IMG/VR virus record: IMGVR_UViG_3300044707_000152
Span: 1 to 55,433 of that record
Origin: a virus
Direction: 5' to 3' (one strand)
DNA length: 55,433 bases
Shown here: piece by piece, positions 29,834-46,175 of the stretch
Layout: every line of letters begins with the position of its first letter
How positions within the stretch are numbered: the first letter of the stretch is position 1
Made by a program: the position numbers and the translations under genes
Notes under the pieces: generated by a model
What the model was told of the DNA's origin: nothing
Databases searched by the model: none
What the model saw: only the letters and a program-made list of their open reading frames with translations

Positions 29834-30112
29834 ATGTCAGAACCAACACAACAAAACGAAACCTCGAAAGCCGTGCTTGAAGCATTCACCTTCATTAAGA
29901 GCGGAGACGAGACACTAAACGAACGAGTCCACGCAATGGCTAGTCTGTTGCATACAGCAGCGATGATGGTCATCAAATCAGAATCCCGCAAGGGTGAGGG
30001 GTTTGAATGTATCAAGTATCTGGAACTGGCATTCATGTATTATCAGAACGCCCAGTTCCGCAAGCGATTCGATACTGAAGAGAAGGAAGAGACTTCTCGG
30101 ATCATCAGTTAA
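29834..30112 (+). CDS. Small helical protein, possible anti-defence factor
   Basis: A 92-residue all-helical protein. The segment GEGFECIKYLELAFMYYQNA recalls the helix of Acb2-type cyclic-nucleotide sponges (pattern of a small hydrophilic start, LEEAFMW-like core), and length fits. This similarity is from memory of the pattern and is weak. It is encoded two bases before the dpdA-like gene. Confidence 0.4.
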   Translation: MSEPTQQNETSKAVLEAFTFIKSGDETLNERVHAMASLLHTAAMMVIKSESRKGEGFECIKYLELAFMYYQNAQFRKRFDTEEKEETSRIIS

Positions 30113-30114
30113 CA

Positions 30115-30705
30115 ATGATAGTAATGCTCGATACATCGGGCAGTCTTGAAACGGCTGCAAGTGAGCTTGATTGTGAAGTCGAACAACTTTTAACACCTCT
30201 CACTTGCCGCCGAATTCAAGCCCCCGGCAAACACTTTGCGGTAGATAACGGAGCATTTTCACAATTGGAAATCAAAGGATTCTTGTCTTTACTTAAAAGA
30301 CTTGAACCAGAAAAGCACCTTTGTAGGTGGGTAGCAGTTCCAGATATTGTTGGATCAGCGAGAAGAACGCTTGAAGTATGGAGTAGATGGAAGGATCGAA
30401 TCAACTACCCATTGGCATTTGTATGTCAAGATGGGCAAGAAAACTTTGATCTACCTTGGGATGAATGCTCTGCAATATTCATCGGAGGAACAACTGAATG
30501 GAAAATGTCCAATCATGTTGTTCACCTTATCAAAACAGCAAAGGCTTTAGAGAAATGGATTCATGTTGGCAGGGTCAACACGCCCGGACGATTTGAATAC
30601 TTTGAAGAACTTGGAGTCGATAGCCTTGATGGAACTGGACTAGGTAGATACACCCACATGAGGAAAGCAATATACGAAGAAAGAAACCAACCTAAACTAT
30701 TATGA
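30115..30705 (+). CDS. dpdA: DpdA-like DNA 7-deazaguanine transglycosylase
   Basis: A 196-residue protein with the motif set of phage DpdA proteins, relatives of tRNA-guanine transglycosylase: AVDNGAF (D44), VAVPDIVG (D77), FVCQDG (105-107), IFIGGTTEWK (about 121-130), HVGRVNT (150-156) and DSLDGTG (169-175). DpdA exchanges guanine in DNA for a 7-deazaguanine such as preQ0, which protects phage DNA from restriction. It is shorter than bacterial DpdA. The next two genes overlap it and each other by four bases, and the third is queD. Confidence 0.75.
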   Translation: MIVMLDTSGSLETAASELDCEVEQLLTPLTCRRIQAPGKHFAVDNGAFSQLEIKGFLSLLKRLEPEKHLCRWVAVPDIVGSARRTLEVWSRWKDRINYPLAFVCQDGQENFDLPWDECSAIFIGGTTEWKMSNHVVHLIKTAKALEKWIHVGRVNTPGRFEYFEELGVDSLDGTGLGRYTHMRKAIYEERNQPKLL

Positions 30706-30944
30706 ATATCTACGAGACAACACATAGAGCCGCTTGCCCGAACGGAAAATTGATAGACACATACGATATAAAGATAACGAGTCACAACACGATAATCGTG
30801 GAGGACTTAATTGAACTCTTGAAAGATGCGCCAAAACAAATCTATCAAGAAGACTTGGCTGATCACCTCCGCGCCAAACTTGGAGCGAAGGTAGAAGTAA
30901 TCGGATTGCACTACGGAATCAAAATAACCTGCATCAGAGAATGA
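30702..30944 (+). CDS. Unknown protein between dpdA and queD (putative 7-deazaguanine pathway partner)
   Basis: An 80-residue protein overlapping dpdA and queD by four bases at each end. It contains an ETTHRAACP motif (E5, H8, C12), an alpha helix (QEDLADHLRAKLG) and a terminal strand with a second Cys (C77). The size and beta-alpha-beta pattern could be half of a tunnelling-fold (T-fold) unit or a small adaptor, but I do not recognise the family. Gene order makes a role in precursor synthesis or DpdA function likely. Confidence 0.6.
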   Translation: MNIYETTHRAACPNGKLIDTYDIKITSHNTIIVEDLIELLKDAPKQIYQEDLADHLRAKLGAKVEVIGLHYGIKITCIRE

Positions 30945-31288
30945 AAACTACAGCATTCAAAGACTTCACATTTAGCGCGGCCCATTACCTTAAAATACCA
31001 GATCACCCATGTTCAGTCATGCACGGGCATAACTACAGAGTAAGAATAGAATGTTCTGGTCAAGTAAACACCTTGGGAATGGTAGTGGATTTTGATGAGA
31101 TAAAACGAAGGGTTGATCCAATCATTAAAAAATTGGATCACAAAGTTATCAACGATGTAATATTTGGAGGAGCAACATCAGAGTATATCGCGGCATGGAT
31201 ATTCAAACAGGCTAATGACCAACTTGGAAATGTGGTGCGAGTCACACTATTTGAAACTGATACTTGTGGAGCGATAGTAGAGAAGTAA
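30941..31288 (+). CDS. queD: 6-carboxy-tetrahydropterin synthase (QueD family)
   Basis: A 115-residue protein with the QueD/PTPS signature: FSAAHYL (H15), catalytic C24, MHGHNYRV (H28, H30) completing the zinc site, VVDFDEIK, LDHKVIND (D66-H67), TSEYIA and a glutamate at 105. QueD turns dihydroneopterin triphosphate into 6-carboxytetrahydropterin, the first committed step of preQ0 synthesis. Steps by QueE and QueC would need host enzymes, as neither was recognised here. It ends the cassette begun by dpdA. Confidence 0.85.
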   Translation: MKTTAFKDFTFSAAHYLKIPDHPCSVMHGHNYRVRIECSGQVNTLGMVVDFDEIKRRVDPIIKKLDHKVINDVIFGGATSEYIAAWIFKQANDQLGNVVRVTLFETDTCGAIVEK

Positions 31289-31311
31289 GTATCGTAACCG
31301 ATAAAAATGAT

Positions 31312-31339
31312 TTGACATTGGTCTTCTGTCCGCTAGGTT
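31312..31339 (+). promoter_or_regulatory. Promoter preceded by palindrome copy
   Basis: TTGACA (31312-31317), 16 bases, TAGGTT (31334-31339). A palindrome copy ATCGTAACCGAT (31291-31302) ends nine bases before the -35 box. The -10 lies in an inverted repeat GTCCGCTAG...CTAGCCGGAC (31328-31369). Confidence 0.6.
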
Positions 31340-31340
31340 G

Positions 31341-31442
31341 CTCGTATCCAATACGAGTTCTAGCCGGACTTTGGAGATCAATTTTCAGTCAATAAAATGG
31401 GTCTGTTGTATTCCGGCTAGATGCAACAGGCCCAATTTTTTT
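31341..31442 (+). ncRNA. Candidate small RNA / attenuator
   Basis: Downstream of the promoter at 31312, hairpin CTCGTAT...ATACGAG (31341-31357) precedes a strong intrinsic terminator: GGGTCTGTTGTAT (31399-31411) pairs with ATGCAACAGGCCC (31421-31433), then seven T. The 9-base loop TCCGGCTAG (31412-31420) is exactly complementary to CTAGCCGGA (31360-31368), so the terminator loop can pair upstream (pseudoknot or switch). No reading frame exists here. Confidence 0.55.
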
Positions 31443-31800
31443 GCCACCATTGGATCGTGTAGCCAGCGGGGATGCGTGAAGGACGCACCGAGAGTAGTCT
31501 GCTAAATACTGGTGAAGGAGTGGAGTTGGAATGGCTGCTAAGACTGTTATCCTGCCAACTTAATGTGCCAGCAATGGCGACTTGCAATTAGTCAACGATA
31601 TTAGACTAGTCTAGGTAAAGGAGAACCGCTGGACGTGGATTGCGAAGCGAAGGTGATACACCCATACAGAAACGTGTATGATTCATTCGGCAAGTTTTCC
31701 CAAATTTTTGGGAGACTTGTCGCTCTGGTTCTGCCCCGCCAGAAACGCAGGAGATTCATTCTCCGAGTAGAATATATTCTGAATAGTTTCAGATTGGTTT
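31443..31800 (+). ncRNA. Gene-less region, candidate large structured RNA
   Basis: No reading frame of useful length on either strand. Many local helices are visible: GCGT/ACGC (near 31472), palindrome TAGACTAGTCTA (near 31603), CATACA/TGTATG (near 31664), CAAGTTTTCCCAAA with TTTGGGAGACTTG (31692-31721), TTCTG/CAGAA, GGAG/CTCC, AGAATATATTCT. Length and density recall the giant phage RNAs GOLLD and ROOL, but no sequence match is claimed. Strand is assumed plus. Confidence 0.4.
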
Positions 31801-31809
31801 AGATAACAA

Positions 31810-31845
31810 AAAAACCAGAAAGGAATTTCTTCCAATCTGGTTTTT
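31810..31845. terminator. Bidirectional terminator
   Basis: AAAAACCAGA (31810-31819) pairs with TCTGGTTTTT (31836-31845), with inner pairs GGAA/TTCC. A-runs and T-runs on the two sides serve both the plus-strand RNA region and the minus-strand helicase gene that ends at 31866. Confidence 0.8.
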
Positions 31846-31865
31846 AAGTTTAAGTGAAACTGGTT

Positions 31866-39532: not shown

Positions 39533-39735
39533 CTTAATTTTCTCAATACTTCTTTTGCGTAGTCTTCCATATGTCTCGCGGACAATCCAGAGTGTGCTAT
39601 GTATACAAGTGCAGCTATTGCTTCTTCTCGTTCACGCTCCAATTGACGTGCGTGTCTCCATATAATCGGATGAGATAATCTTGCCGCGCTTCCAAGCTGA
39701 TCTTCAATATGGTCTGTTTCTGGTGTATCGCTCAT
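39529..39735 (-). CDS. MSDTPETD-type coiled-coil protein (copy 1)
   Basis: A 68-residue protein from the ATG at 39735 (MSDTPETDHIEDQLG...), which overlaps the glycosyltransferase stop. ARQLEREREEAIAAL is a short coiled coil. A second gene at 42561 shares both the N-terminus and the coiled coil, so these are paralogues. Confidence 0.65.
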   Translation of the reverse strand: MSDTPETDHIEDQLGSAARLSHPIIWRHARQLEREREEAIAALVYIAHSGLSARHMEDYAKEVLRKLR

Positions 39736-40859
39736 GGATAGTATCTGTTCATTGCTTCGATGTCGTTTCCTTTGGCATACCACCCGTCTCCAGTGTAGAC
39801 ATCCATGACATCTGAGAAATATTTCTCATACATGGGTGCTACCCGCTCCAAAGTGAAGTTTTTTCCGAATCGGTGGCAGTCGTATGGGCAAATTCGGTCG
39901 ATGTTCTTAATCGCATCTACGTAGTCTCCCATCGTGCGGCAGCGGAATCCTGTTACACCATGTAGGTTATTCTCTGTGAAGCTACCCCAGTCAGAGGTGA
40001 TTGTTGGAGTCCCAGATAGTAGGTTCTCTACTTGGACACCCCCGAATGGTTCTACATACTGACTTGGTAGAAAGGACGCTTTGGCTTTCGACATGAGCTT
40101 CTTTCTGGTAGGAACATCGGCGTATCCTACATAGTGAACATGGTCTGGTAGCTTGTAACCTTCTTCTTTTTGGCCTGCGATTACCAGTTTAACCCCCGCT
40201 CGGTAGGTAGCTTCAATGGCAATATCTACACCTTTTCCGCTATACACCCTACCAAGATAGAGGAAGTAATCTTCTTTCTGGTCACAGAAGTCGAAGTCTT
40301 CTTTATCGAAGTAGTTTGGGATTACCACGGCATAGTTATCTTGTTGGCAATTTCCTACTGCCTGCATTCCGCAGAACGCATGGTAGATTGCGTAGGATTC
40401 AAATACCTTCCACCGCGCCCAATGTCCACCTGCATATCCAATACCCGGCTCAACTGTGATTAAGTCTGGATGCGCGTCACAAATAGGACGAACACCACTA
40501 CCCCAGAATGGGAGAATGAAGTCATTTTTCTTCTTACGCTGCCCAATTGCCTTAATCGCATTTCGGTAGAAAGTTTGGTAGGCATGGTCATTCGTATTAA
40601 ACTTGAAGAATGTCTTTCTCCAGTCATGTGATCCATAGCTCTTATTGAAGTCATCGTTGGTTAGGACAGGGACGTGTTCTGTGCAGATTAGGTCTGAATC
40701 TTCGTGTCCGTAGTGGATTACTTCATGGCCGCGCTGGGTCATCATCTTCCCGAACTTCACTACCTTTTGGGTGTAAGCGCAGGCGTTGAATTCTTTGGAA
40801 CTAACTGTATGAGGCAAGCCGAGGATATGGAATCTAAATTTATCGTTTACGATACTCAT
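39732..40859 (-). CDS. Glycosyltransferase family 4 (GT-B)
   Basis: A 375-residue protein. The donor half has YLGRVYSGKGVDIAIEA (about 200-216) and EPFGGVQVENLLSGTPTITSDWGSF (about 275-300), the E-x7-E region that binds the nucleotide-sugar in GT4 enzymes. The acceptor half is less conserved. Target unknown: DNA base, virion protein or host surface. The palindrome at 40843-40854 is read as codons 3-6 of this gene (IVND). Confidence 0.8.
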   Translation of the reverse strand: MSIVNDKFRFHILGLPHTVSSKEFNACAYTQKVVKFGKMMTQRGHEVIHYGHEDSDLICTEHVPVLTNDDFNKSYGSHDWRKTFFKFNTNDHAYQTFYRNAIKAIGQRKKKNDFILPFWGSGVRPICDAHPDLITVEPGIGYAGGHWARWKVFESYAIYHAFCGMQAVGNCQQDNYAVVIPNYFDKEDFDFCDQKEDYFLYLGRVYSGKGVDIAIEATYRAGVKLVIAGQKEEGYKLPDHVHYVGYADVPTRKKLMSKAKASFLPSQYVEPFGGVQVENLLSGTPTITSDWGSFTENNLHGVTGFRCRTMGDYVDAIKNIDRICPYDCHRFGKNFTLERVAPMYEKYFSDVMDVYTGDGWYAKGNDIEAMNRYYP

Positions 40860-45380: not shown

Positions 45381-46175
45381 TTATCCATCATAGCACCCGC
45401 ATGGAATTTTGTGTGGATCATTCTCGTCAAGCCATTCAAAAAGTTTTAATTGATCGTCGTCAGCTTCAACAATATCGCTCCACGGAACGCCGAAAGATAA
45501 TCCTTTTACTCGGCCCTTCACAACCATGTTTGTTTCCATTGCGATTGCTCTCGCAAAATATTCTGGATATTCTTTTCGCAGGCGAAGAATTTCACTATTC
45601 TTCATTGCGGGGCAGAAGAAGCATGATGACTTTCCGGGTAATGGCAATCCATGTCGTTTGATTGTATCAACGCATTCACTGCGAGTCCACATCCATTCGA
45701 TAAGCGGATACCAGTTATTGGCTTTTTGAGTTTTAGAAAGCTGGGTATATTCTATACTAATCGCACGATGTCCCTCTCCAGCATCATATCCTATTGCACG
45801 AATTATTTCTGAATGATTATTATCTTTCATCCATTTCTTTATCATTTTATTCTGAGGATCAACCTTATGTTTCAATGAGCAAGCCTTAAATCCATAAGCC
45901 AGTGAAGGAAGTATTTTCTTGCGGTGGCACTCATCATACAAGTTCTCTCGTTCTCCTTTGTATGTAGCGTAAACTTTTTCAATCTCAAGACCCCACCATT
46001 CTTGAGTTTTCTTGCTCATCAAATCAATGTGAGCGTAAGTATTCGGAAGTTCACCGCCAGTATCTGCGAATACAATTAGGTCTGGTTTGATTCCTCTATC
46101 AATAAATCCGCAAAGCATGGCGACTGAGTTTGTTCCGCCTCCGTAAGCAACAACTAATGGTTTATCTATTTTCAT
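45381..46175 (-). CDS. PP-loop ATPase, PAPS-reductase-like
   Basis: A 264-residue protein of the adenine-nucleotide alpha-hydrolase fold: YGGGTNSVAM (11-20) is the PP-loop, IVFADTGGE (34-42) the following strand, IGYDAGEGHR a later conserved motif, and C99, C185 and C188 (GKSSCFFCPA) could hold a metal or Fe-S cluster. Relatives activate sulfate or bases, including DndC-type DNA phosphorothioation and QueC. With dpdA/queD present, a part in base modification is possible but unproven. A palindrome copy sits seven bases before its ATG and another just after its end. Confidence 0.75.
   Translation of the reverse strand: MKIDKPLVVAYGGGTNSVAMLCGFIDRGIKPDLIVFADTGGELPNTYAHIDLMSKKTQEWWGLEIEKVYATYKGERENLYDECHRKKILPSLAYGFKACSLKHKVDPQNKMIKKWMKDNNHSEIIRAIGYDAGEGHRAISIEYTQLSKTQKANNWYPLIEWMWTRSECVDTIKRHGLPLPGKSSCFFCPAMKNSEILRLRKEYPEYFARAIAMETNMVVKGRVKGLSFGVPWSDIVEADDDQLKLFEWLDENDPHKIPCGCYDG

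Follow-up and report, generated by a model that had tools for sequence, protein, structure and literature searches.

A candidate miniature non-reducing QueF-Like enzyme beside a small DpdA-like protein in a compact viral deazaguanine cassette

Here, we propose that P0002, an 80-residue viral protein, is a miniature non-reducing QueF-Like enzyme and the partner of a DpdA-like protein in a compact 7-deazaguanine DNA-modification cassette, a reading to which we give a probability of roughly two in three. The window analysed, 55,433 bp long, is an entire IMG/VR virus record. Computation places the P0002 gene in a cassette between a TGT/DpdA-like gene and queD, gives the protein a T-fold and QueF homology, finds its predicted catalytic residues conserved and the NADPH motif of QueF absent, and shows adjacency to a TGT-like gene across the family. 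Our verdict is that the P0002 family is a new, strongly reduced QueF/QueF-Like variant coupled to miniature DpdA-like enzymes. We found no description of the 80-residue family in the literature covered, outside which lies 2023 work on further phage deazaguanines.

The cassette and its TGT/DpdA-like gene

As an earlier sequence-only reading had reported, three genes are joined here by four-base overlaps, and both junctions are ATGA. The features are as follows.

29834..30112, plus strand: 92-residue (92-codon) ORF of no family, ending 2 nt before P0001
30115..30705, plus strand: P0001, predicted 196-residue minimal TGT/DpdA-like base-exchange enzyme (AlphaFold2, Foldseek, conserved columns, annotation of relatives)
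30702..30705, plus strand: ATGA stop/start overlap of P0001 and P0002
30702..30944, plus strand: P0002, 80-residue QueF-like T-fold protein (fold, profile, profile-profile comparison); predicted active-site residues C12 (30735-30737), D19, E50 and H70
30941..30944, plus strand: ATGA stop/start overlap of P0002 and QueD
30941..31288, plus strand: P0003, QueD, 6-carboxy-5,6,7,8-tetrahydropterin synthase, 115 codons (Pfam PF01242, 2.1e-31)

The overlap of P0001 with P0002 would couple their translation, and the identical gene order and overlaps recur in independent contigs (L011, L012, L014 and L018/L019/L046). The upstream 92-residue ORF is probably on the same transcript as the TGT-like gene; it is not a conserved member of the module. 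Three comparisons with unsaturated dS gave P0002 a dN/dS of 0.06-0.09, and hence it is a real protein gene under strong purifying selection. The identification of the third gene as QueD holds: P0003 matches the PTPS family (2.1e-31), its AAH, C-x3-HGH and C-terminal ET motifs are visible in the sequence, in keeping with the zinc His triad and the catalytic Cys and Glu of that family, and it is 42.6% identical to the QueD of Sonali. A related contig (L010, 3168-4141) has queE (radical SAM) between the small gene and queD.

Downstream of queD, 577 bases without a clear gene (31289-31865) separate it from a convergent helicase gene; ARAGORN and Rfam found no RNA elements in the window, this interval included. 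The minus strand of the window also carries a glycosyltransferase-family protein (39732-40859; phrog_3408 match, 3e-190) and a PAPS-reductase-like gene (45381-46175; phrog_424, 5e-37), and PAPS-reductase genes adjoin or lie near relatives of P0001 in phages ReqiPine5 and R6L.

The first gene had been called DpdA-like, a call borne out by its predicted TGT-like fold and by its phage relatives, which are annotated as “DpdA-like tRNA-guanine transglycosylase”. P0001 itself is phrog_15826, “unknown function”, and has no Pfam match; since a PDB sequence-profile search gives no TGT either, it is the fold, the motifs and the context that carry the assignment. The AlphaFold2 model (pLDDT 95.3) is a TGT-like barrel, and the majority of its top Foldseek matches are TGTs at E of about 1e-5, with ThiG comparable, consistent with a TGT-type TIM barrel. 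Invariant or nearly invariant positions are D44-N45-G46, P76-D77, Q105-D106-G107, G124-G125, H150-x-G-R-V-N155 and D172-G173, among which D44, D77, Q105, G124-G125 and D172 come in TGT order when mapped by motif rather than by superposition. With phage DpdA (9g/CAjan type) and DpdA2, P0001 shares the TGT-like barrel and deazaguanine neighbours. Unlike DpdA, it has only 196 aa, being much smaller than TGT and missing the zinc-binding subdomain, and its profile has no match to CAjan or nt-1; weak links run to MED16 (2.5e-4) and to Epa33-type DpdA (to 5e-8). R29Z and Sonali carry a P0001-type gene besides a DpdA-type gene.

Relatives of P0001 occur in at least 514 viral contigs. Among 80 such loci, near-identical contigs included, the adjacent gene is queC in 29, queD in 12, a P0002-family gene in 10, a yhhQ-like gene in 6 and queE in 1, and none of these in 22, the last figure taking in contig ends and a yhhQ gene outside the distance rule (L167). 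By eye, some of these 22 carry diverged QueD-like neighbours (L155, L162). Escherichia phage phiG7 (gp20-gp21; L004, 5932-6524) and phage SHIN8 both have, near dpdA and adjoining the DNA polymerase, a further TGT-like gene of the P0001 family; as it is divided between two overlapping ORFs, it may be frameshifted or broken. In Synechococcus phage Ssp-JY42 (L003, 5753-6004), an 83-aa protein precedes a relative 51% identical to P0001; its C-terminal half is faintly similar to P0002, it is without the CP motif, and the P0002 profile misses it.

Fold and predicted active site of P0002

Routine searches say little about P0002. Pfam, PHROGs (phrog_37496, “unknown function”) and a single-sequence PDB search gave nothing informative, a Pfam scan of 32 family members returned chance matches only, and Pfam QueF (PF14489) matched neither P0002 nor any member scanned. 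The AlphaFold2 model, built with 32 family members, is confident (pLDDT 93.2) and has the beta-beta-alpha-alpha-beta-beta order of a T-fold unit. Against 350,542 PDB chains, the top 13 Foldseek matches are the archaeosine synthase QueF-Like (5jyx/5k0p), with E from 7e-5 and a TM-score to the query of up to 0.82, followed by GTP cyclohydrolase I and then by Vibrio QueF among the next matches. The model of 30702-30944 alone and the Foldseek search thus give P0002 the tunnel (T-) fold of QueF and, from the three options previously offered for the middle protein (a new pathway step, a specificity factor or a small T-fold enzyme), they pick out the last.

Profile comparisons agree. A P0002 profile searched against all PDB sequences placed QueF-Like first each time (E 0.035, 0.099 and 0.0071, the last for 5jyx once divergent members had been added). 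An hhalign comparison with QueF/QueF-Like gave 87%, E 3.7e-6 and a score of 36.7 over 75 columns, whereas 200 column shuffles scored at most 19.1. A paralogue of QueD or FolE was considered and rejected, the hhalign scores of 14.1 (QueD) and 17.8 (FolE) lying within the shuffle range, against 36.7 for QueF. Each match is remote singly; together, we find the structural model and the profiles convincing for homology to QueF, and they indicate that P0002 is a highly reduced QueF relative, closest to QueF-Like. The earlier view of the middle protein as unlike the usual pathway partners is not supported.

In QueF, a Cys bonds covalently to the nitrile of preQ0 as a thioimide, a Glu holds the deazaguanine, and an Asp and a His serve as acid/base. 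Our alignments place C12 of P0002 on the Cys of SVCP/SLCP, the covalent thioimide position in 5jyx, and D19 on the Asp of QPD in QueF (C+7), and they match Q49-E50 to the HE in FHE, the His of QueF being Gln in P0002. In an alignment of 27 rows, the most divergent members among them, invariance is limited to C12, P13, Y21, E50 and H70. Judging from the order of secondary structure, C12 (end of strand 1), E50 (start of helix 2) and H70 (end of strand 3) would be expected together at one end of the fold. In the subfamily linked to P0001-type genes, the Asp before x-Tyr is retained and the motif reads (Y/F)QE; the subfamily linked to Epa33-type DpdA has Ile/Val at the Asp position (C+7) and usually (W/F/Y)HE, sometimes FQE. 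Hence neither has the full QueF set of C/D/H/E.

The NADPH motif of QueF, E(S/L)K(S/A)xK(L/Y)(Y/F/W), was found in 0 of 52 members of the P0002 family and in all five annotated phage QueF proteins used as a control, Dp-1 included. Its absence makes a reductive reaction by the family unlikely. QueF homology (hhalign 87%; 5jyx, E 0.0071), the catalytic-Cys position and the missing NADPH motif are together the features of QueF-Like.

Distribution of the family and comparison with known systems

The homologues number about 70 in all. A search with the 80-residue family alone found it in 42 viral contigs, in the phages RHph_X2_30 (Rhizobium), Epa33 (Pseudomonas) and Mae-JY30 (Microcystis), all three of them isolates, in ten Pseudomonas genomes when 84,980 species were scanned, and in nine of 299 further Pseudomonas genomes (one a repeat); six more copies came via loci reached through the neighbouring gene. 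Pseudomonas prophages are among the carriers, and plasmids gave no homologue.

The sequence-only reading had linked the middle protein functionally to both of its neighbours, and had suggested a survey of homologue neighbourhoods. That survey supports the link in that every intact homologue found adjoins a TGT/DpdA-like gene, which belongs to one of two classes and may lie on either side, but queD is not a constant partner, being missing beside the small gene in L013, L015, L020 and the Epa33-type loci. Four arrangements occur, with a P0001-type gene upstream or downstream (the latter in L137), or an Epa33-type gene downstream or upstream (the latter in Mae-JY30). Contig L052 ends within the neighbouring gene, the start of which reads as an Epa33-type DpdA. 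The one exception (L016, 4712-4828) preserves only the last 39 residues of the small protein with no TGT-like gene alongside, and looks like the remnant of one deletion that removed both genes. Other companions of the small gene are yhhQ-type transporter genes (RHph_X2_30, L141) and queE together with queD (L010).

The reverse does not hold. Many phages have an Epa33-class DpdA without the small gene, and the P0002 profile found no hidden copy beside DpdA in the Epa33-class phages BTP1, Athena1, AB3P2, D105, RothD and AH07. Thus, the small gene behaves as an accessory that depends on the DpdA-like enzyme. Within a close group (L013, L014), P0002 is 81-85% identical while the adjoining P0001 drops to about 33%, a pattern that would fit replacement of the TGT-like gene.

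How does P0002 compare with known QueF relatives? With QueF-Like (5jyx, 5k0p) it shares a unimodular T-fold, the lack of an NADPH motif and, by profile alignment backed by the fold match, the SVCP Cys, the Asp at C+7 and the (H/Q)E. It differs in having 80 rather than 109 residues, Gln for the His of HE and an added, invariant His70-x-Gly, and in the coupling of its gene to a TGT-like gene; the sequence similarity is remote (PDB-wide profile E 0.007). Published phage genomes already include some in which QueF or QueF-L adjoins dpdA (PMC6884629; MMDA13, PMC7472734). Like P0002, Dp-1 gp1, Funsized gp2, R26L, Pan1 and MMDA13 Gp33 are QueF superfamily proteins in a dpdA neighbourhood, and those of Dp-1, Funsized, R26L and Pan1 have Cys and Glu at the same positions. 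In contrast to P0002, which Pfam QueF misses, the phage QueF/QueF-L proteins come with most of the preQ0 pathway, have 132-173 aa where examined, and contain the NADPH motif in the four compared (Dp-1, Funsized, R26L and Pan1).

A further parallel is Arthrobacter phage Aoka, in which, as here, a QueF-like protein without the NADPH motif (gp39) directly precedes a P0001-type TGT gene (gp40). Aoka gp39 (L005, 4667-4996; annotated hypothetical) has 109 aa, passes Pfam QueF (PF14489, 8.7e-7, 29.5 bits against a cut-off of 27.3) and is unmatched by the P0002 profile. Instead of queD, Aoka has the yhhQ-like gp38 (L005, 4143-4670; annotated membrane protein; yhhQ/DUF165 profile match, 1e-40). Aoka would thus be an independent precedent for the pairing of a P0001-type gene with a QueF relative that lacks the NADPH motif and is predicted to be non-reducing.

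Candidate reaction, alternatives and significance

What reaction might such a cassette carry out? QueD would raise flux into preQ0, which QueE and QueC of the host would be expected to complete (L010 has its own queE). By analogy with DpdA (PMC6884629), and given its neighbourhood, P0001 would swap guanine in DNA for a 7-deazaguanine. For P0002 we infer catalysis and product from its sequence and model. Its substrate could be free preQ0 or preQ0 in DNA, before or after insertion. Cys12, at the end of strand 1, would attack the nitrile to form a covalent thioimide, with Glu50 (in YQE, the FHE of QueF) holding the deazaguanine ring and Asp19 and the invariant His70 serving as acid/base. Because the NADPH motif is missing, the thioimide would most likely be resolved without hydride, with ammonia yielding archaeosine's formamidine (dG+) or water yielding the amide (dADG), and not to dPreQ1.

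The enzymes that turn preQ0 into phage DNA bases are incompletely known, and dADG occurs in DpdA-only phages without an assigned enzyme (PMC6884629, PMC8306585). The phages with measured dADG (7-11, MED16, CP220 and nt-1) are without P0002, and known cases therefore reveal no product for it. As the source of dADG in Salmonella 7-11, MED16 and CP220, P0002 was rejected, the gene being absent there. Dp-1 was predicted to carry dG+, its protein having been predicted to be QueF-L, and turned out to carry dPreQ1 (PMC6884629); hence sequence by itself does not tell the product. We lean tentatively, at a little under even odds, towards dG+. A product of dADG is a minority expectation, some other product or none is rather doubtful, and dPreQ1 is improbable.

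One alternative, which we consider unlikely though worth keeping in view, is that the family performs new chemistry on preQ0 in DNA, using a Cys/Glu/His site with an optional Asp, unlike the site of either QueF or QueF-Like, and giving a product that is neither dPreQ1 nor dG+. It might, for example, be a dedicated nitrile hydratase that makes dADG, or the maker of a new derivative. If true, this would add a new last step to the hypermodification of phage DNA.

We think it quite unlikely that P0002 is instead a T-fold subunit without catalysis of its own, which binds preQ0 or DNA and either delivers the substrate or sets the sequence specificity of the TGT-like enzyme. Such a subunit could well be this small, constantly adjacent to a TGT-like gene with ATGA coupling, and found beside two very different TGT classes, and the many phages in which an Epa33-class DpdA does without it would fit an accessory. 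However, invariance falls on a Cys, a Glu and a His that, going by secondary-structure order, share one end of the fold, which is what an active site would show and not a docking surface. A P0002 still 81-85% identical next to a P0001 at about 33% is also unlike a protein co-adapting with one partner.

It is improbable that P0002 is a true nitrile reductase, a mini-QueF that makes preQ1 for a phage DNA carrying dPreQ1. Its homology to QueF by hhalign would suit this, and the dPreQ1 in Dp-1 DNA, where QueF-L had been predicted, is a reminder that product calls based on names are unreliable (PMC6884629); against it, the closest fold is the non-reducing QueF-Like and the NADPH motif retained by Dp-1 and four other annotated phage QueF proteins is found in no member of the family. 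Least probable of all, and in our view very unlikely, is that P0002 diverts preQ0 from host QueF and tRNA while the TGT-like gene acts on RNA: TGT folds do natively work on tRNA, but phage DpdA with deazaguanine genes puts bases in DNA (PMC6884629), relatives of both genes lie amid phage DNA-metabolism genes (in phiG7 and R29Z, for example, dpdA, folE, queD and DNA polymerase), and an Epa33 ORF annotated as “C-5 cytosine-specific DNA methylase” adjoins DpdA.

At about 80 residues and invisible to Pfam, the P0002 family, which phages and Pseudomonas prophages carry coupled to DpdA-like genes, is a small candidate for one of the steps that convert preQ0. Beside it stands a 196-residue TGT-like family with relatives in more than 500 viral contigs, often adjoining one preQ0-pathway gene, and for this reason our sequence survey suggests that deazaguanine DNA modification may be commoner in phages than annotation shows.
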